A DNA stretch of 35,249 bases, from NCBI GenBank assembly GCA_022703215.1, contig JAKLEE010000003.1, positions 1 to 35,249 on the forward strand, given 5' to 3'. Shown here one piece after another: positions 796-10,326 of this stretch. Under the pieces are notes generated by a model, which saw only the letters and a program-made list of their open reading frames with translations, did no database searches and was not told where the DNA came from. Position 1 is the first letter of the stretch. Each line of letters opens with the position of its first letter. The translations under genes were made by a program, and so were the position numbers. The stretch is from Spirochaetota bacterium. Its GTDB lineage: Bacteria > Spirochaetota > Spirochaetia > Treponematales > UBA12059.

Positions 796-1137
796 TTGGT
801 GAAGAACAAGCCGACGCAGAAACTGGTCGCTCCCGGGGGAGTCCTCGGCATCGAGACTGCTTCGCCCTTGAGGCAGGAGCTCCTTGCCGCCTTGGCCGGG
901 TCCGATGAAGTGCTCTTCGATTTCTCCGGCGCCGAGGACATCGATCTGGCCGTGTTGCAGGTGCTCTACGCGGCCCGGCGCAGCGCCGAGCTCGGAAAGG
1001 TTCGCTTCTCGTTGATGGGTAAGGTTTCGGAGAAGATCTCCAAACGCCTGCAGGTCGCCGGTTTTACCCATTCCCCCTGCCGCACCGGGGAGGAGCTCGA
1101 GACCTCGCTGGTCGATTACGGGAGCGCGACGAAATGA
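796..1137 (+). CDS. STAS-domain protein (anti-sigma antagonist-like) of a chemosensory operon
   Basis: A protein of about 113 aa made of a single STAS domain. The core (LFDFSGAEDIDLAVLQVL, residues 40-57) matches the central strand and helix of SpoIIAA/MlaB-like domains. The usual phosphorylated Ser/Thr is replaced: the D-S-S-G position reads D-L-A-V, so partner-switching by phosphorylation looks unlikely, and a phosphorylation-independent docking role is more plausible. The start is TTG at 796 or GTG at 799; the GGAC-type ribosome site at 785-793 fits either. Its stop overlaps the cheA start by four bases (ATGA), which implies translational coupling. STAS proteins of this sort are known in non-flagellar chemosensory clusters; the partner here is unknown. 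Confidence 0.7.
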   Translation: MVKNKPTQKLVAPGGVLGIETASPLRQELLAALAGSDEVLFDFSGAEDIDLAVLQVLYAARRSAELGKVRFSLMGKVSEKISKRLQVAGFTHSPCRTGEELETSLVDYGSATK

Positions 1138-3284
1138 TCGACGGCTTCAAGGAAACCTTCCGCGAGGAAGCAGAGGAGCTCCTGTCGGGGCTCGAGGGCA
1201 TCCTGCTCGAACTCGAAACCAAGCCCGGCGATCCGGAACTGCTGAATGCGGCGTTCCGCGCTGTGCACACGATCAAGGGTTCCGCGGGCATGTTCGGGTT
1301 CGAGGCGATCGGGCGCTTCGCGCACGATCTCGAGAACATCATGGACAGGATCCGCTCGGGCTCGCTTTCCATGACGAAGGACTTCGCGGACCTGGCCCTG
1401 TCTTGCCGCGACCACATCAGGACCCTGCTCGCGGCCGACGAGGATCCGGGACCCGCGATACAGGAGCGCACCGGGCAGTTGGTGGAGGCCCTGCGCGCAT
1501 ATGCCGCCAAGGGCTCGCGCGCGGACGGAGGAGAGTCCGAAGCGCCGTCGGAAGGGCGCGCCGACGCCTTGACGGATAATCCGGATGCAGGTGGAGAGGA
1601 AACCGTCTGGCGGCTTTCGTTCAAGCCGGGCCAGGGAGTGTTCCGCTCGGGAACCAAGGTGCTCCGCCTGCTCGAGGAACTGTCCGAGCTCGGCGACTGC
1701 GCGTGCTTCCCCCATACCGAGAACATCCCCGAGCTCGAGAAGCTCGATCCCGAGGCCTGCCTGACCTCCTGGGACGCGATCATCGCCAGCGGCAAGGGGC
1801 CTGACGCGATCAAGGACGTCTTCATCTTCATCGAGTCCGAATCCGAGATCGCCCTCGAGAAGATCGAGGAGGCAGCGATACTCCAGGAACGCGAGGAGCC
1901 CAAAAAGCTCGGCGAGATCCTCCTCGATCGGGGCATCGTGACGAGGGCGGCGATCGACGAGGCCCTGCGGTCCCAGCGCCGCCTCGGCGAGGTGCTCATA
2001 GAAAAAAAACTTGTATCGAAGGAACAGGTCGAATCCGCCTTGGTCGAGCAGGAGCACCTGAAGCGCGTTCAGGAGCGCCAGGTGGATACGGGAGCCGCGA
2101 GCATAAGGGTCGCCAGCGAGAAGCTGGACCAGCTCGTGGACCTGGTCGGCGAGCTCGTGACCCTCCAGGCCCGGCTTTCCCAGACGGCCCTCGGCATCCA
2201 GGATCCCGGCCTGACCGGCATCTCGGAGATGTTCGACCGCCTGATCTCGCAGCTGCGCGACAACACCATGAGCATCCGCATGCTGCCGATCGGTTCGACC
2301 TTCAACAAGTTCAGGCGCGTGGTGCGCGACCTCTCCCTCGAGCTCGGGAAGGATGCCGAGCTCGCGACCGAAGGCGCCGAGACGGAACTCGACAAGACCG
2401 TCATCGAGAAGCTCGGCGACCCGCTCGTGCACATAATCCGCAACTCGCTCGACCATGGCATCGAGCGGCCGGCGGACCGGCTCGCCGCGGGAAAACCTCG
2501 CTCGGGCACAATACGGCTCTCCGCCATGCATTCGGGCGCCTACGTGCTGATCCAGGTTGCCGACGACGGCGCGGGCCTGGACCGCGCGGCCATCAAGGCG
2601 AAGGCGCTCGAACGGGGCATCATAAGTCCCGGCGCGGACCTCCCCGATCAGGAGATAGACCAGCTGATCTTCGCCCCGGGCTTCTCGACGGCGAAGACCG
2701 TCACCAAGGTTTCGGGCCGCGGCGTCGGCATGGACGTGGTCAAGCGGGAGATCGATTCGCTCGGCGGCACGGTCCTCCTCAAGAGCGAGCGGGGCCACGG
2801 CACCACCATGACCCTCAAGATCCCGCTCACCCTCGCGATCATCGAAGGCCTGCTCGTGAAGGTCGCCGACGAATTCTACGTGGTCCCCCTTTCGAGCGTG
2901 GATGGCTGCATCGAGATCAGGTCCGACGAGGTGGTGGAGCGCGACGGCAAGCGGATCATCACCTATCGCGGCGAACTCCTGCCCTTCGTCCCGCTCCGGA
3001 CCTGGTTCGATTCTCCCGGCGAAGCGCCGGCCATCTCGCAGATCGTCATCGTCAACGCCCTCGATTCGCGCATCGGTTTCGTGGTCGATCAGGTGATCGG
3101 CGACTACCAGACCGTGGTCAAGCCGCTCGGACGGCTCTACCGGAACGTGCGCGGACTGTCGGGCGCCACGATACTCGGCGACGGCACCGTCGCGCTCATC
3201 CTCGACGTGAACCGCCTCTCGCAGGCGGTCAAGCGCGACTCGACCGGCAGGGCGGGGCGCGACGAGGCGTTGCTCGATGCCTGA
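1134..3284 (+). CDS. cheA: Chemotaxis histidine kinase CheA with an unusual inserted repeat domain
   Basis: A 716-aa cytoplasmic kinase that autophosphorylates and passes phosphate to CheY and CheB. Domains in order: Hpt (P1) with phospho-accepting H45 in AVHTIKGSAG; a P2-like region at about 158-245; an insertion at about 258-306 with two KLGEILLDRGIV-like repeats; the P3 dimerisation helices (about 325-390); an ATPase domain with N box HIIRNSLDHGIE (433-444), G1 DDGAG (477-481) and G2 GRGVGM (528-533); and a C-terminal CheW-like P5 domain from about 568. All catalytic motifs are intact. It overlaps the STAS gene by 4 bases and cheR by 8. The inserted repeat resembles the N-terminal MshEN/GspE-N domain of type II secretion and pilus ATPases. 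No separate receiver domain is fused. Confidence 0.97.
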   Translation: MIDGFKETFREEAEELLSGLEGILLELETKPGDPELLNAAFRAVHTIKGSAGMFGFEAIGRFAHDLENIMDRIRSGSLSMTKDFADLALSCRDHIRTLLAADEDPGPAIQERTGQLVEALRAYAAKGSRADGGESEAPSEGRADALTDNPDAGGEETVWRLSFKPGQGVFRSGTKVLRLLEELSELGDCACFPHTENIPELEKLDPEACLTSWDAIIASGKGPDAIKDVFIFIESESEIALEKIEEAAILQEREEPKKLGEILLDRGIVTRAAIDEALRSQRRLGEVLIEKKLVSKEQVESALVEQEHLKRVQERQVDTGAASIRVASEKLDQLVDLVGELVTLQARLSQTALGIQDPGLTGISEMFDRLISQLRDNTMSIRMLPIGSTFNKFRRVVRDLSLELGKDAELATEGAETELDKTVIEKLGDPLVHIIRNSLDHGIERPADRLAAGKPRSGTIRLSAMHSGAYVLIQVADDGAGLDRAAIKAKALERGIISPGADLPDQEIDQLIFAPGFSTAKTVTKVSGRGVGMDVVKREIDSLGGTVLLKSERGHGTTMTLKIPLTLAIIEGLLVKVADEFYVVPLSSVDGCIEIRSDEVVERDGKRIITYRGELLPFVPLRTWFDSPGEAPAISQIVIVNALDSRIGFVVDQVIGDYQTVVKPLGRLYRNVRGLSGATILGDGTVALILDVNRLSQAVKRDSTGRAGRDEALLDA

Positions 3285-4128
3285 GCGCCTGGAGACCGTC
3301 GGCTACGGCGCCCTGAGCGACCGTGATTTCAGGCGCCTCTCGGAATACATCGAGCGGGAGCTCGGCATCCGCATGCCTGACACCAAGCGCGTCATGCTCG
3401 AAAGCCGGCTCCAGAAGCGCGTGCGCCTGCTCGGGCTGGACGGTTTCCCGGCTTACGTCGACTATGTGTTCTCCGACGAAGGCAGCCGGCATGAAATCCT
3501 CAATATGATCGACGCGGTCACGACCAACAAGACCGACTTTTTCAGGGAAGCCGACCACTTCGACTTTATCGAGCGTACCCTCGTGCCCGAGGCCATGGTC
3601 GCAGGCGGTGGAAGGCCACTGCGTTTCTGGAGCGCCGGCTGCTCCACCGGCGAGGAACCCTATACCCTCGCCATGGTGCTCGAGGAAAGCCGCGCGGACC
3701 ACCGGGGGCTGGAATACTCCATCGTGGCCAGCGACATCTCCACGGCCGTGCTCCAGAAGGCAATTACCGCCGTGTACGACGAGGAGCGCGTGTCCGACGT
3801 TCCCGTCTCGTTCCGGAAGAAATACCTGCTGCGCAGCAAGGACCGGGCTCCCGCCCGGGTGCGGATCCGACCCGAGCTGCGCGCCCGCGTCGAGTTCGTA
3901 CGCGTCAATCTCATGGACGACCGCTACCCGGTGGAAGGGAGCTTCGACGCCGTTTTCTGCCGGAACGTCATAATTTATTTCGAGCGGCCGACCCAGGAGC
4001 GCATCCTCAGGCGGCTCGTGGACCACGTCCGGCCCGACGGCTACCTCGTGCTCGGACATTCGGAGACCCTGACCGGCATGGACATGCCACTCAAGTCGGT
4101 GGCTCCGACCATCTACCGGAAAACCTGA
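3277..4128 (+). CDS. cheR: Chemoreceptor methyltransferase CheR
   Basis: A 283-aa SAM-dependent methyltransferase that methylates glutamates of chemoreceptors. The N-terminal helical domain (about 10-75) is followed by the family motif [10 protein letters not shown] (82-91), the SAM-binding loop [12 protein letters not shown] (119-130), the acidic ASDIS strand (151-155) and the FCRNVIIYF signature near the C terminus. Length is usual for the family. The ATG lies within the last codons of cheA, an 8-base overlap. No tetratricopeptide extension and no C-terminal pentapeptide-binding oddity is visible. No receptor gene lies in the window, so its target must be encoded elsewhere. Confidence 0.96.
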
Positions 4129-4154: not shown

Positions 4155-5237
4155 GTGGCCGAGCGGATCCGTGTCATGGTGGTTGACGACAGCGCAGTCG
4201 TCAGGCAGACCCTCAAGGAACTACTCAACCAGGATCCCGGCATCGAAGTGGTGTCGGTCGCGCCGGATCCGCTTTTCGCCCTGGCCAAGATCGAAGCCGA
4301 CAGGCCGGACGTCATCATCAGTGACGTCGAGATGCCGCGCATGGACGGCCTCACCTTCCTCAGGCAGGTCATGGAGAAGTGGCGCATCCCGGTGGTCATC
4401 TGCTCCTCCAAGACCGAGGCGGGCAGCGACAACGCTATCAGGGCCATGGAGTACGGCGCCGTCGAGATAATCCAGAAACCCAAGCTCGGCACCAAGCAGT
4501 TCCTGGAGGAATCCCGGGTGGAATTCGGGGACGTGGTCCGGGCGGCCGCCATGGCCAGGGGGCGCGTCGTCGCGAGGCCGCTGCCGGCTCCGCCGCCCAA
4601 CCCGAGTCCGAAGCTCACCGCGGACGTGATCCTGCCCAAGCCCGGAAACGGCGAGGGAATCATCGAGACCACAGAACGCGTCGTGGTGGTCGGCGCCTCG
4701 ACCGGCGGCACCGAGGCGCTCAAGGATTTCCTCGAGGTGTTCCCGGAGGACGGGCCAGGCATCGTCATCGTCCAGCACATGCCCGAGCATTTCACGGCGG
4801 CCTTCGCCAAGCGCCTCGACGGGCTGTGCCGCCTGGGCGTCAAGGAAGCCGCCGACGGCGACTCGGTCATTCGTGGCCGGGCCTTGATCGCGCCCGGAAA
4901 CCGTCATACCCTGCTCAAGCGCTCCGGCGCGCGGTATTACGTCGAGGTGAAGGAAGGCCCCCTCGTCTGCCGCCACCGCCCGAGCGTCGACGTGTTGTTC
5001 CGCTCGGCCGCCCGGTACGCTGGCCGGAACGCCATCGGGGTCATCATGACGGGCATGGGCGACGACGGGGCCCGCGGCATGAAGGAGCTGCACGACGCGG
5101 GGGCCTGGTGCCTGGCCCAGGACGAGCAGAGCTGCGTGGTTTTCGGCATGCCCAACGAGGCCATAAAGCTCGGCGGCGTGGACCTCGTCCTGCCGCTCGG
5201 GAGCCTCGCGGGAGAGGTGCAGAAGCGCGCGCGATAG
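4155..5237 (+). CDS. cheB: Chemoreceptor methylesterase/deamidase CheB
   Basis: A 360-aa two-domain enzyme that removes methyl groups from receptors when phosphorylated by CheA. The receiver domain (about 5-120) has the acidic pair D11-D12, phospho-acceptor D57 in [11 protein letters not shown], and K109. A proline-rich linker (about 140-165) leads to the esterase domain with catalytic S182 in GASTGG, H208 in VQHMPEHF and D304 in TGMGDDG, so the triad is complete. The start is GTG at 4155, chosen because GGAGG (4141-4145) lies nine bases upstream. It pairs with the adjacent cheR as the adaptation arm of this system. Confidence 0.96.
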
Positions 5238-5306: not shown

Positions 5307-5675
5307 ATGGCCAAGAGGATTCTCATCATCGACGATTCGGCGGCCATCCGCCAAAGCATCACCTACATCCTCAACCAGGAAGGGTACGAAACCATCGAGG
5401 CGAAGGACGGGCAGGAAGCCCTCGACATGCTGCCGACGCTCGACGCGATCGACCTCATCATCACCGACGTCAACATGCCCAATCTCGACGGCATCTCCTT
5501 CATCCGGAAGGCCCGCGAGCTGGTGAAGTACCGCTTCACGCCCATCCTCGTGTTGACCACCGAAAGCCAGGGCACCAAGATGAACGAGGGCAAGGAAGCG
5601 GGAGCGACCGGCTGGATAGTCAAGCCGTTCAGCGCCGACAAGCTGCTCGGAATCGTCCGGAAAGTGGCGGAGTGA
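5307..5675 (+). CDS. cheY: Chemotaxis response regulator CheY
   Basis: A 122-aa stand-alone receiver. The acidic residues D9-D10, phospho-acceptor D54 (ITDVNMPNLDG), the T84-T85 switch region and K106 (IVKPF) are all present. There is no output domain, as in motor-binding or relay CheY proteins. A strong ribosome site (AAGGAGG, 5291-5297) precedes the ATG. The 69-base gap after cheB shows no clear promoter. The gene runs directly into cheW. In this cluster it could act on a motor or serve as a phosphate sink for CheA; the sequence does not tell which. Confidence 0.95.
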   Translation: MAKRILIIDDSAAIRQSITYILNQEGYETIEAKDGQEALDMLPTLDAIDLIITDVNMPNLDGISFIRKARELVKYRFTPILVLTTESQGTKMNEGKEAGATGWIVKPFSADKLLGIVRKVAE

Positions 5676-5686
5676 GCGGGGGAACG

Positions 5687-6169
5687 ATGGCGGAATACGC
5701 CGGACGGGCAGGACAGTACCTTTCTTTCAATCTCGGGGACGGCCAGTACGCCATTCCCGTGGCCAGGGTCGAGGTGGTGCTCGAAAAACAGCCCATCACC
5801 CGGGTGCCCCGGGCCCGGCCCTGGCTGCGCGGCGTGACGAACCACCGCGGCTCGGTCATTCCCGTGGTCGACCTCAAGCTTCGCTTCGGGATGGGCGAGA
5901 CCCCGATCGCCGAAGGCATCTCGATCATCGTGCTCCAGCTTGATTTCGACGGGGACATCGTGACCGTCGGCATGCTCGCCGACGGTGTCCGCGAGGTCAT
6001 CGATATCGAGACCGCCGAGCTCGAATCCGCTCCCGACGTGGGAGGAAAGCTCGACCGCAAGGCCATCGCCGCCATCGGCAAGAAGGACGGGGCGTTCATC
6101 GTCATCCTGGACGTGGACGAGGCGTTCGCCACCGACGGGGCGGCGTTCGCACCGGACGAGGCCGAATGA
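5687..6169 (+). CDS. cheW: Chemotaxis adaptor CheW
   Basis: A CheW scaffold protein of about 160 aa that links receptors to CheA. The paired SH3-like folds are recognisable from QYLSFNLGDGQYAIPVARVE at the N terminus, the conserved RGVTNHRGSVIPVVDL centre, and IVILDVDEAF near the end. ATG at 5687 is preferred because the family homology starts just after it. A GTG at 5672 that overlaps the cheY stop is an alternative adding five residues. Its stop overlaps the next gene's ATG by four bases, coupling the adaptor to a hybrid histidine kinase rather than to another che gene. Confidence 0.94.
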   Translation: MAEYAGRAGQYLSFNLGDGQYAIPVARVEVVLEKQPITRVPRARPWLRGVTNHRGSVIPVVDLKLRFGMGETPIAEGISIIVLQLDFDGDIVTVGMLADGVREVIDIETAELESAPDVGGKLDRKAIAAIGKKDGAFIVILDVDEAFATDGAAFAPDEAE

Positions 6170-7989
6170 GGGAAGGCCGGGCCGTCCGCGTCCTCGTCGT
6201 GGAGGACGAGAGCGTCGTCGCGCTTGACGCGCGGCTCAGGCTCGAAGGGCTCGGTTACGCCGTCGTCGGAATCGCGGACAATGCCGCCGACGCGCTGGGT
6301 CTCGCGGCGCGCGAAAATCCGGACCTGGTCCTGATGGACATCCGCATTAAGGGCGAGACCGACGGAATCGCGGCCGCCGAGGCGCTCCGCGACATGAGCG
6401 ACGTGCCGGTCGTGTTCGCCACCGCCTACGCCGACGACGATACCCTGTCGCGCGCGAAGACCTCGAGTCCCTACGGTTACATCGTCAAGCCCTTCCAGGA
6501 GCGGGAGCTCAAGATTGTCATCGAGCTGGCGCTGGCGAAGCACGAGTACGAGAGGGGTATGCGCGAGGCCCGGGACCTCGCGGAAGCGGCCTCGCGCGCG
6601 AAAAGCGGCTTCCTGGCCACGATGAGCCATGAGCTCATGACCCCCCTCAACTCGATCATCGGGTTCACCGAGCTCGCGATGGACGGTGCCGACGAGGAAG
6701 GTCGCGGCAACCTCGCGATAGCCTTGGAAAGCGCCCGTTCACTCAAGTCGCTCATCGACTCTGTGCTCGAGTACGCGAGGCTCGAGTCCGGCGATGACCG
6801 GGTGCTGGCGACGGACATCGACCCCGTCGCTGATCTGGAGTCGCTGCTCGGCCAGTACGCGGCGCGGGCGAGGGTTAAGGGCCTTGAAATTTCCCTCGCC
6901 GAGGACCCCGGCCTGCCTTCAAAAGTCCGCCTTGACGGCCGGAAGTTGCTGCACGCCGCCTCTTGCCTGCTGGACAACGCGGTGAAGTTCACCGGCCGCG
7001 GTTTCGTCCGCCTGGCGCTCTCGCGGTCCACGCTGCCCGACGGAAAACCGTCGCTCCTCATCGAGGTATCAGATTCCGGGCCGGGGATACCCGAAGGCCG
7101 GCGGGACGAAGCCTTCGGCGGCTTCGTGCAGCTCGATCCTTCGTACCGGCGGAAGGCTGGAGGCGCAGGGCTCGGGCTGGCGATCGCTAAGGGCCTGGCT
7201 GGCTTGATGGGCGGAAGGGTGGAGTTGGCCGACCGTCCCGGTGGTGGCACCCTGGTGCGCCTCGAGGTGCCGTGCCGGGAAGCGGGAAGCGCCGCGGAGC
7301 GCCGCGACGCGTTCCGCGGCCGGACTGTCGCCCTGGCGGGCGTCGCCGAACCCTGCGCGTCCGACATGGCCGGCGCCGTGGAAGCCCTCGGCGGCCGCGT
7401 CACGACCCTGTCCGGCCCGGGCGAGCTCGAGCGCTTCCTCGCGTCGGACCCGGAGGCGCTCGCCCTGGTCGACGAAGCGCTGGCCCCCGCCGGCCCGGAA
7501 GGCGCGGCGGGTAGCAGCGGGCGGATTCTTTCGTTGCGGAGGCGGGGAACGGGCCGGAAGGCCTCTCCCTGGTACGGGCCCTTCGCCTGGTACCCCGTCG
7601 GTATCCGGAAGCTCCTGATTTTCGCCGCGGGCGAAAGTCCCGATCGCGACGGCGCCGACCGCGAAGTCCCCGCGCGCCCCGCGAAGTCCGGCGACGCGGC
7701 GCGCGACGGCGGAAGCGGTTTCGCCGAGCTGCTGGGGGACCTGCGCTCGGAGTTGGGCGATGACCGGACGGAACTCGACGACCTCGCGCGCCTCTCCACG
7801 GCGCTCGGGAAGGCGCTCGCCGAATCCGATTTCGAGGCGGCCGAGCGGGCGGCGCAGCTCTACCGGGATCGGGCCGAGGCCAGGGGTTCGAAGAGCGGCG
7901 CACGCGCGGCGTTCGCCGCGCTGCGCGCCGCCCGGCGCTCCGACGCCGCCGGGCTCGCCGAGTTCGAACGGCGCTTTTCCGCGACCTGA
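6166..7989 (+). CDS. Hybrid histidine kinase: receiver, HisKA, HATPase and degenerate receiver
   Basis: A 607-aa cytoplasmic protein without membrane segments. The N-terminal receiver (about 8-125) has E13-D14, D58 (LVLMDIRIKG) and K108. A short coiled linker leads to a HisKA domain with H155 in MSHELMTPLN, where the usual arginine after HEL is Met. The ATPase domain follows, with N271, G1 DSGPGI (303-308) and G2 GAGLGL (333-338). Residues about 387-490 look like a receiver that has lost its acidic pocket. The last 90 residues are charged and helical, without a recognisable HxxKG Hpt motif. Having no sensor domain, it probably takes its input as phosphate on D58, perhaps from CheA. It overlaps cheW by four bases. 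Confidence 0.9.
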   Translation: MREGRAVRVLVVEDESVVALDARLRLEGLGYAVVGIADNAADALGLAARENPDLVLMDIRIKGETDGIAAAEALRDMSDVPVVFATAYADDDTLSRAKTSSPYGYIVKPFQERELKIVIELALAKHEYERGMREARDLAEAASRAKSGFLATMSHELMTPLNSIIGFTELAMDGADEEGRGNLAIALESARSLKSLIDSVLEYARLESGDDRVLATDIDPVADLESLLGQYAARARVKGLEISLAEDPGLPSKVRLDGRKLLHAASCLLDNAVKFTGRGFVRLALSRSTLPDGKPSLLIEVSDSGPGIPEGRRDEAFGGFVQLDPSYRRKAGGAGLGLAIAKGLAGLMGGRVELADRPGGGTLVRLEVPCREAGSAAERRDAFRGRTVALAGVAEPCASDMAGAVEALGGRVTTLSGPGELERFLASDPEALALVDEALAPAGPEGAAGSSGRILSLRRRGTGRKASPWYGPFAWYPVGIRKLLIFAAGESPDRDGADREVPARPAKSGDAARDGGSGFAELLGDLRSELGDDRTELDDLARLSTALGKALAESDFEAAERAAQLYRDRAEARGSKSGARAAFAALRAARRSDAAGLAEFERRFSAT

Positions 7990-8000
7990 GGGAGGGAACC

Positions 8001-8414
8001 ATGCGGATGCTGATAGCAGAGGATGATTTCGCCTCGAGGCGCATGATGCTGAAGCTCCTGGAGCCCTGGGGCCAGGCCGACCTCGCTGTGGACGGACAGG
8101 AGGCTATAGACGCCTTCGAGCTCGCCTGGGTGGAACGATCCCCCTACGAGCTCATCTTCATGGACATCATGATGCCCAAGGTGGACGGCCAGGAAGCCCT
8201 CAAGGCGATCAGGAAGTCCGAGTCCGAACGGGGCGTGCCGCCGTCGCGCGAGGTGCGCGTGATCATGACGAGCGTACTCGAGGATCCGCGGAATGTCCTG
8301 GAGGCCTTCGGCAAGGGCGGGGCGACCGCCTATCTGGTCAAGCCCATCTCCCGGGACAAGCTGGAGGCCGAGCTCGGGCGACTCGGCTTCCCCCCCGCGT
8401 CGAAGCGGGGTTAG
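8001..8414 (+). CDS. Stand-alone response regulator receiver
   Basis: A 137-aa single receiver domain with acidic E7-D8-D9, phospho-acceptor D55 (LIFMDIMMPKVDG), a T/S switch in VIMTS, and K114 in YLVKPIS. It has no DNA-binding or enzymatic output domain. A good ribosome site (GGAGGGAACC, 7989-7998) overlaps the stop of the preceding kinase. It lies between two hybrid kinases, which suggests a shuttle in a multi-step phosphorelay. It is distinct from the cheY at 5307, with a longer alpha4/beta5 region (SESERGVPPSREV before beta4). Confidence 0.92.
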   Translation: MRMLIAEDDFASRRMMLKLLEPWGQADLAVDGQEAIDAFELAWVERSPYELIFMDIMMPKVDGQEALKAIRKSESERGVPPSREVRVIMTSVLEDPRNVLEAFGKGGATAYLVKPISRDKLEAELGRLGFPPASKRG

Positions 8415-8421
8415 GCGGAAC

Positions 8422-10326
8422 ATGGCCCGGGTCGCGATCGTCGAGGACGAATCCCTTGTAGCGCTCGATATTGCCCGCTTCCTCGAGCGGCGCGGCCACG
8501 TCGTCGCCGGCACCTTCGACTCGGGCGACGAGCTGCTTTCGGCCTTCGACCGCCTCGACGCCGACCTGGTCCTCATGGATGTGAAGATCCGCGGTTCGCG
8601 CGACGGCGTGGAGACCGCAGGCCTGGTCCGCGAGCGTTACGGCGTGCCGGTGGTCCTGCTCACAGCCTTCGCGGACGAGGATACGGTCGAGCGCGCGAAG
8701 CGCATCGAGCCTTTCGGCTACATCATCAAACCTTTCGAGGAGCGCGCGCTCTGGACCGCCATGGAGATCGCGCTCTACCGCGGCGACATGGAACGTCGCC
8801 TGATGCGGAGCGAGCGGAAATTCCGTTCGCTGTTCGAGGGCAGTCCCGGATGCAATTTCCTCTTCGACCGCTCCGGCGTCATCATTGAGGCCAACGCCTC
8901 GTTCCGCGCCGTTTTCGGCGACGCGGCGGGACTGGACCTCCGCTCCCGCTTCAACGATCCGGTGGCCTTCGACGACATCGTCCGCGCGCTCGACGCCGAC
9001 GGAAGCCGCCCCGGTGCGGAGTACCTGCTCAAGGGTCCCGACGGCGGCGAGGTGTGCATGTTCGCTAGCTTCTCCTCCGAGTCGTTGTCGAAAGGCGGCG
9101 AAGGGGGAGCCTGGGAACTGGCCCAGGGCTTCGCCATCGACGCGACCGAGCGTCGCAGGCTCGAGGCCCAGCTCAGGCAGGCCCAGAAGCTCGAGGCCAT
9201 CGGCAGCCTGGCGGGCGGCCTGGCCCACGATTTCAACAACGTGCTGACCGCGGTGATGGGGCATGCGGACCTGCTCGCCGATTCCGCGCGGGACCGCCCC
9301 GACTTGCTCGACGACATCGACGGTGTCAGGCGGGCTTCCCGAAGGGCCGCATCGCTGTCGCGGAGGCTGCTCGGCTTCGCCCGCCGGAGCGTCCACGAAC
9401 CCAGGCGCCTTGCCCCGGACGAGCTCGTCGCGGAACTCGAGCGGATGCTCAAGCGGCTCCTGCCCGTGGATATCGCGCTCTCCTGCGCTTATGGGGCCGG
9501 GGCTTGCCGGGTCAACGCCGATCCTTCGCACCTCGAGCAGATCATCGTCAACCTGGTGGTGAACGCGCGCGACGCGATGCCCTCGGGCGGCACGATACGC
9601 CTCACCACGGAAAAGGCGGAGCTTGCCGGGCCACGCGCGGGCAGGATCGGCTCGGTGGGAGCGGGACCCTGCGTGCTCCTCAAGGTCGCGGATACGGGAA
9701 CGGGTATCCCTCCCGCGGACCTGACGCGCATCTTCGAACCGTTCTACACGACCAAGGGACCGAACGCGGGCACCGGACTCGGACTCGCCATGGTCTCGAA
9801 CCTCGTGAGGGAAGCGGGCGGCCTGGTCGACGTGGATTCAGAACCCGGGCGGGGCTCCACCTTCACCGTCATCCTGCCCGCGATCCAGGCGTCGGAGGCC
9901 GGGCACGAGGCCGGAACCTCCGTGGTCGGGCGCTACGATCCTCCCGTCGGTCTCAGCGCCCTGGTGGTCGAAGGGGATTCCGACGTGCGTGACCTGCTCG
10001 AGAGGACCCTCGGACGCTTCGGCTTCGAGGTGCGCGCGGCGTCCGGTCCGGGGGAAGGGCTCAAGGCGGCCGAGGAGCTCGGAGCGCGCATCGACCTCGT
10101 CGTGGCCGACCTGGTCATGCCGCTGATGGGCGGGGACGAGCTCGCCGTCCGGCTGAGGAAGCTCGCGCCCGAGTCGGCGGCGCTGATAATTTCGGGACGC
10201 GACGAACCGGTCGCGCCGCTCGGAGGGCGCTTCGCCCTGCTCAGGAAACCATTCGACGAGAAGGCACTCCGTTCGGCCCTGGAGAGGATACTCCCTCAGG
10301 CGAGGCCGGAAAAGGCCAGCGAATAG
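8422..10326 (+). CDS. Hybrid histidine kinase: receiver, PAS, HisKA, HATPase, receiver
   Basis: A 634-aa soluble kinase. The first receiver has D53 (LVLMDVKIRG) and K103. A PAS domain spans about 130-245 (ERKFRSLFEGSPGCNFLF at its start). The HisKA domain has H269 in GGLAHDFNN, of the type found in NtrB-like kinases. The ATPase domain has N381, G1 DTGTGI and G2 GTGLGL. A C-terminal receiver has D563 (VVADLVMPLMGG) and K609. The ATG at 8422 is chosen because the receiver fold begins there; the same frame is open further upstream but overlaps the previous gene. Both kinases of the cluster begin with a receiver, an uncommon shared design. The 3' end overlaps the convergent ATPase gene by 31 bases. 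Confidence 0.92.
   Translation: MARVAIVEDESLVALDIARFLERRGHVVAGTFDSGDELLSAFDRLDADLVLMDVKIRGSRDGVETAGLVRERYGVPVVLLTAFADEDTVERAKRIEPFGYIIKPFEERALWTAMEIALYRGDMERRLMRSERKFRSLFEGSPGCNFLFDRSGVIIEANASFRAVFGDAAGLDLRSRFNDPVAFDDIVRALDADGSRPGAEYLLKGPDGGEVCMFASFSSESLSKGGEGGAWELAQGFAIDATERRRLEAQLRQAQKLEAIGSLAGGLAHDFNNVLTAVMGHADLLADSARDRPDLLDDIDGVRRASRRAASLSRRLLGFARRSVHEPRRLAPDELVAELERMLKRLLPVDIALSCAYGAGACRVNADPSHLEQIIVNLVVNARDAMPSGGTIRLTTEKAELAGPRAGRIGSVGAGPCVLLKVADTGTGIPPADLTRIFEPFYTTKGPNAGTGLGLAMVSNLVREAGGLVDVDSEPGRGSTFTVILPAIQASEAGHEAGTSVVGRYDPPVGLSALVVEGDSDVRDLLERTLGRFGFEVRAASGPGEGLKAAEELGARIDLVVADLVMPLMGGDELAVRLRKLAPESAALIISGRDEPVAPLGGRFALLRKPFDEKALRSALERILPQARPEKASE

Follow-up and report, generated by a model that had tools for sequence, protein, structure and literature searches.

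The CheA protein encoded near one end of the window (the whole stretch of DNA analysed, 35,249 nucleotides from a Spirochaetota bacterium) carries a compact, spacer-shortened relative of the MshEN domain, which probably binds cyclic di-GMP (c-di-GMP) and thereby affects the CheA kinase. This reading, a c-di-GMP input built into CheA, is given a probability of roughly 0.58. The relation of the module to MshE and PilF in sequence and predicted fold, its conservation and its shortening were established by computation. c-di-GMP determines whether cells move or settle, and CheA is the driver of chemotaxis or of other chemosensory outputs.

The tandem motifs of CheA and their gene context

The arrangement of CheA and its neighbours is the following (nucleotide positions in the window; residue numbers of CheA):

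796..1137, + strand: STAS-domain protein, overlapping the start of cheA by 4 bases
1134..3284, + strand: CheA, 716 amino acids, with domains in the order P1 to P5
Residues 7-99: Hpt/P1 domain (Pfam, over cut-off)
Residues 155-246, 1596..1871, + strand: putative P2-like domain (strands and helices alternate in the model)
Residues 258-320: MshEN-like module
Residues 258-281, 1905..1976, + strand: motif I, starting K258-L259-G260, with I274, L278 and Q281
R282, 1977..1979, + strand: spacer between the motifs, 1 residue (5 in MshE)
Residues 283-306, 1980..2051, + strand: motif II, starting R283-L284-G285, with V299, L303 and Q306
1908..2093, + strand: predicted four-helix bundle (AlphaFold2; helices 259-265, 271-278, 284-290 and 296-320)
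Residues 322-381, 2097..2276, + strand: P3 dimerisation domain (H-kinase_dim; Pfam, over cut-off)
Residues 429-566: HATPase/P4 domain (Pfam HATPase_c, over cut-off)
Residues 571-698: CheW-like/P5 domain (Pfam, over cut-off)
3277-4128, + strand: cheR, in one gene cluster with cheA
4155-5237, + strand: cheB, same cluster
5307-5675, + strand: cheY, same cluster
5672-6169, + strand: cheW, same cluster

The protein is a CheA by its Hpt, P3, HATPase and CheW-like matches, all over cut-off, and its His45 is invariant in the 75 aligned rows. The Pfam scan gave no P2 match over residues 155-246, and no match to PF00437 (T2SSE ATPase domain) in CheA, which is thus not a member of the T2SS/T4P ATPases. 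Relatives of cheR, cheB, cheY and cheW were also found in related loci. A STAS relative occurs in 42 of 80 related loci (the best 80 of 138 relatives), including all 17 of L002-L018, and two receiver-histidine kinase hybrids (6166-7989 and 8293-10326) lie immediately downstream of the che cluster.

The module is located between the P2-like domain and the P3 helices. A reading of the sequence only had proposed two tandem units in residues 258-306, and these were recovered with coordinates that agree to one base (1905-2051). A relaxed motif pattern matched the 716 residues of CheA precisely twice, at motifs I and II. When the whole CheA was shuffled (n = 20,000), at least one motif match appeared in 9 shuffles and a tandem pair in 0; because of the latter result, the pair, judged by its letters, is not a product of chance. 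The two motifs share 8 of 24 residues, an identity reached by 9 of 20,000 shuffles.

Relation to MshE and PilF in sequence and predicted fold

The NCBIfam model NF053729 (MshE-related c-di-GMP motif) matched CheA with E 2.9e-12 and 46.2 bits, over its cut-off of 38; it matched at E ≤ 0.01 all 65 CheA rows of alignment A2 (65 of 81 rows), and in the own genome it passed the cut-off in the module-bearing CheA only. Compared by phmmer to PDB sequences, the module gave PilF (4.5e-8) and MshE 5HTL (0.0028), values that a profile of the 65 CheA modules improved to 1.4e-24 and 3.7e-9, respectively; in these alignments a gap of 4 separates the motifs. The MshEN/GspE-N relatedness proposed earlier is thus upheld by NF053729 and by the PilF and MshE comparisons, but not by the Pfam model: CheA does not reach the gathering score of MshEN (PF05157), which does not appear among its Pfam matches even with E allowed to reach 10. 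Two sub-threshold Pfam matches overlap the module (1899-2057, residues 256-308), namely DUF4388 (16.2 bits, cut-off 25) and FumaraseC_C (16.7, cut-off 32.5).

AlphaFold2 was run on full-length CheA with 75 aligned CheAs and on the module alone with 66 rows. Both models show a four-helix bundle like that of 5HTL, with pLDDT about 93-98 (about 93-95 over the bundle in the full-length model, core block means of 95-98 for the module alone). The bundle is placed ahead of P3, in line with the location just before the dimerisation helices that had been read from the sequence; the last bundle helix (296-320) extends toward P3, and the following P3 helix begins at residue 328. In Foldseek, the top 11 hits of the module model were c-di-GMP-bound chains of MshE or PilF GSPII-B, with probability 1.0, rmsd 1.0-2.6 Å and identity 37-42%, though with E values of 0.013-0.16, none under 0.001. 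VIA-align gave Z 8.4 (rmsd 2.0 Å, 56 residues) for 5HTL, 6.2-8.2 for PilF GSPII-B, 5.5-5.8 for related PilB N-domains and 4.2 for the best unrelated rows. The structure comparison also brought up fumarase chains, with Z near 4. For a predicted helical bundle, Z alone is a weak argument; it is the gap to the unrelated rows, together with an identity of 37-43%, that carries the relation.

Taken against the published description of MshEN, the module shows two tandem 24-residue motifs (258-281 and 283-306), both opened by the R/K/L-L-G signature (K258-L259-G260 and R283-L284-G285). The spacer is of one residue instead of the five of the 53-residue domain, so that the distance between the motif glycines (G-to-G) is 25 rather than 29. 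The first of the two turn glycines (MshE G18 and G47) is present as G267, while the second is replaced by K292, in a column with Gly in 55 of 81 rows (the window and the best 80 of 138 relatives). The LxxxLxxQ elements read I274/L278/Q281 and V299/L303/Q306, with both Gln kept and one Leu of each pair changed to Ile or Val; V299 stands at the position of MshE Leu54. Since two defining features looked for are absent, the module is filed as an MshEN variant and not as a strict member. The one-residue spacer, the replacement by K292 and the prior appearance of MshEN-CheA in print had escaped the sequence-only reading.

Conservation of the module and of the ligand-contact positions

The homologue sample consisted of the best 80 of 138 CheA relatives from public genomes, that is, 81 rows with the window. 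The survey bore out the conservation of the module, which was found in 79 of these 80 close homologues, the sole exception being a row from Bacteroidota (L052). The bearers belong to five phyla: Spirochaetota, Thermodesulfobacteriota, Nitrospirota, Deferribacterota and Magnetococcales. Alignments A1, A2 and A3 drop 6, 16 and 15 of the 81 rows, mostly further-shortened Magnetococcales; L035 (with an insert) and L073 (spacing 29) are absent from A2 and A3, and L052 from all three.

Over the 81 rows (window and best 80 of 138), Gly260 is present in 79, Gly285, Leu303 and Gln306 in 80 each, and position 258 is Lys or Arg in 80. Gln281 occurs in 48, with 12 rows gapped by deletion of the segment. 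With L052 left out, Gly285, Leu303 and Gln306 are invariant in all 80 module-bearing rows (window and 79 homologues), and their equivalents in MshE (G40, L58 and Q61) touch the ligand (PMC5013675). Mean entropy was 0.90 bits at ligand-contact positions versus 1.92 bits in the rest of the module (p 0.0006), a test confounded because several contact positions are core positions too. Among the candidate c-di-GMP-binding residues, the majority of the contact positions are retained, but V299 and K292 depart from the consensus and Gln281 is variable.

Shortening of the module and its lineage within CheA

Among the 80 module-bearing rows (from the window and the best 80 of 138), the G-to-G distance is 25 in 67, 22 in 12 and 29 in one (L073). 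The rows with spacing 22 are all from Magnetococcales (L054, L057, L058, L063, L064, L068, L074, L075, L076, L079, L080 and L081), and their further shortened module lacks the Gln segment of motif I. A subgroup of CheAs with spacing 24 (L106, L109, L126, L129 and L136) has a motif I one residue shorter, and in its sister rows L143 and L144 no module was detectable.

The module was also used as query against 80 genomes drawn from Spirochaetota, with a match in 44. Thirty matched loci were read, of which 25 were CheA and 5 non-CheA, a CheA share that is biased because the query was built from CheA. Spacing in the 25 CheA loci was 29 in 12, 26 in 6, 25 in 5, 30 in one and longer in another; the 5 non-CheA proteins among the 30 loci showed neither 25 nor 26. 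Two unrooted trees, in which some branches are long, were made as quick searches with SH-aLRT only; the second leaves out 25 rows used in the first (long branches, near copies) and has 23 new ones. Most of the 25, 24 and 22 forms cluster, and their group also takes in L073 and three rows that have no module; nine 26 forms make one group, and the remaining 29 forms fall in other lineages.

The window module is thus a variant that is about one helical turn shorter than the canonical-spacing CheA modules. Because the canonical distance of 29 occurs in more distant CheAs of the phylum, and because of the tree grouping, it is most simply taken as a shortened descendant of a canonical MshEN-type domain, the direction being a matter of interpretation in an unrooted tree. 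Losses of 4 and 7 residues come to about one and two helical turns, by which the facing of helix 2 would be preserved.

CheAs without the module, c-di-GMP enzymes and pilus ATPases

The 30 genomes of the relatives (the window's included) contain 63 CheA-like open reading frames, one gene being counted twice; the module is present in 28 and lacking in 35. A tree group of 27 rows, presumably the usual flagellar CheA of spirochaetes, is entirely without it. This group includes the second CheA of the own genome (contig C61, L087; an open frame of 1022 amino acids), which lies among the module-less CheAs of relatives.

The own genome has 25 matches to GGDEF, the diguanylate cyclase domain, and two PilZ matches. 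Since GGDEF is found in all 30 genomes of the relatives (own included), as well as in 30 of 30 genomes drawn from 80 other loci, its co-occurrence with the module does not discriminate. Among the relatives, genomes that have a module-bearing CheA (17) gave more GGDEF matches than those that have none (13), with p 1.6e-5, or p 0.0013 when counted per Mb. This excess is given little weight, because within the family alone p was 0.13 (14 versus 5) and both genome size and kinship are confounders. Of the 30 genomes, with the own genome counted, 6 contain a T2SSE ATPase and 3 show PF05157 at E 0.001. The sole T2SSE ATPase found in the own genome (contig C149:263-1705, L001) has a weak PF05157 match (24.9 bits) and no NF053729 listing.

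Proposed mechanism and alternative interpretations

Residues 258-320 would correspond to the N-terminal four-helix subdomain of MshEN/GSPII, shortened and placed at the P2-P3 linker site of other CheAs. c-di-GMP would be held by K258-L259-G260, R283-L284-G285, the leucine-type clusters, Q281 and Q306, and its binding may change the packing of the bundle and of the long last helix, just ahead of the P3 helices. In this way, the access of P1/P2 to the P4 kinase core could be altered, and CheA autophosphorylation could go up or down, the sign being indeterminable. Published data on related domains agree with several of these points. An isolated N-terminal subdomain, PilF 159-221, binds c-di-GMP with 54 nM, MshEN without its C-terminal subdomain binds with 350 nM, and R, K or L is allowed at the motif start (PMC11731258). 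Binding is strengthened by Lys at motif position 1; it persists at 0.46-0.95 µM when a single Gln is mutated to Glu, and is lost only in the double mutant. In view of these results on the subdomain, Lys and Gln, the presence of K258 and R283, together with the two LG pairs and the two Gln, fits a binder. Against the binder consensus stand the one-residue spacer (five residues are described for the binders in the literature consulted; PMC5013675), V299, K292 and the occurrence of Gln281 in only 48 of 81 rows (best 80 of 138 plus the window). Non-binding, degenerate GSPII domains are on record, for example XpsE (PMC5013675) and PilF GSPII-A. It is because of the departures in the spacer, V299 and K292, and of these non-binding relatives, that binding with a kinase effect is held no higher than probable.

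The competing interpretation with most weight, doubtful as it may be, is that of a degenerate, non-binding MshEN descendant, serving as a rigid element or as a surface for self-association or protein-protein contact that sets the geometry of P1/P2 relative to the dimer. It would account for the stepwise shortening (G-to-G 29, 26, 25, 24, 22), for the absence of the motif I Gln segment from 12 rows of Magnetococcales and for the running of helix 4 toward P3, and GSPII domains without binding offer precedents. Packing alone, however, hardly explains the invariance of Gly285 and Gln306, the latter corresponding to the MshE residue that hydrogen-bonds ribose and phosphate (PMC5013675), nor does degeneration sit easily with a predicted core that superposes at 1-2 Å on ligand-bound structures. 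Docking of a partner from a type IV pilus or type II secretion system, the other role suggested by the sequence-only reading, is quite improbable. The domain family was first described in T2SS/T4P ATPases (PMC5013675), and one T2SSE ATPase is encoded in the own genome, but of the 17 genomes in which a CheA has the module, 12 gave no match to this ATPase, for which reason the role is rejected as a general one; its scarcity, and that of PF05157, in the 30 genomes points the same way. As to chance resemblance to a generic helix-turn-helix pattern, short helical repeats may mislead, Pfam MshEN is silent and the residues of the module also give weak matches to FumaraseC_C and DUF4388; nevertheless, NF053729, the module profile, Foldseek, VIA-align, the shuffles and the conservation in 79 of 80 homologues (best 80 of 138) exclude it, with a negligible residual probability.

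Returning to the c-di-GMP-binding reading, it can be extended, tentatively and at slightly worse than even odds, to a whole CheA lineage of at least five phyla sensing c-di-GMP directly through a compact, spacer-shortened MshEN module. Motif II (Gly285, Leu303, Gln306) would be the anchor, while motif I would have been trimmed stepwise, each step taking about one turn of helix; the CheA dimer may bring together two cooperating half-sites next to the P3 helices. The link between c-di-GMP and chemosensory systems named in the literature consulted runs through a PilZ adaptor that acts on the methylation of chemoreceptors. If the receptor were within CheA itself, this link would become a one-protein question, accessible in vitro, an input would be known for many CheAs of Spirochaetota, Thermodesulfobacteriota, Nitrospirota, Deferribacterota and Magnetococcales, and the minimum length of an MshEN domain still able to bind would be defined.

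Comparison with known systems

The MshEN-CheA architecture has been known in outline since 2016, when the association of MshEN with CheA, CheX and other domains was mentioned in one clause by Wang et al. (PMC5013675); the passages of that article consulted describe neither a spacer variant nor a CheA function. Besides it, the literature search, as far as its sources could be consulted, found no paper joining MshEN with CheA, nor an experimental test of the combination. The present analysis adds the shortened variant, its occurrence across five phyla, its lineage within CheA and its invariant positions.

The MshEN domain of Vibrio cholerae MshE (5HTL; PMC5013675) is alike in its two 24-residue motifs, its four-helix bundle and its key Gly, Leu and Gln. 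It differs in that the CheA module has a spacer of 1 residue and not 5, no C-terminal beta subdomain and a motif II without the turn glycine; moreover, the MshE domain begins an ATPase, whereas the module sits within CheA. The canonical-spacing MshEN-like CheAs of Spirochaetota (for example L160, L162 and L167) have their module at the same CheA site, and the P2-like domain is also common to the window CheA and the canonical-spacing CheAs of its lineage; the canonical-spacing CheAs differ by their G-to-G distance of 29 and by belonging to other CheA lineages in the tree. GSPII-B of Thermus thermophilus PilF (8PDK and mutants; PMC11731258) shares with the CheA module the Lys at motif I position 1; over 53-57 residues the two are 37-43% identical and superpose, with the predicted model, at about 1-2.6 Å. 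It differs by its longer inter-motif spacer, its ATPase context and its standing as an experimentally shown high-affinity binder of c-di-GMP (PMC11731258).
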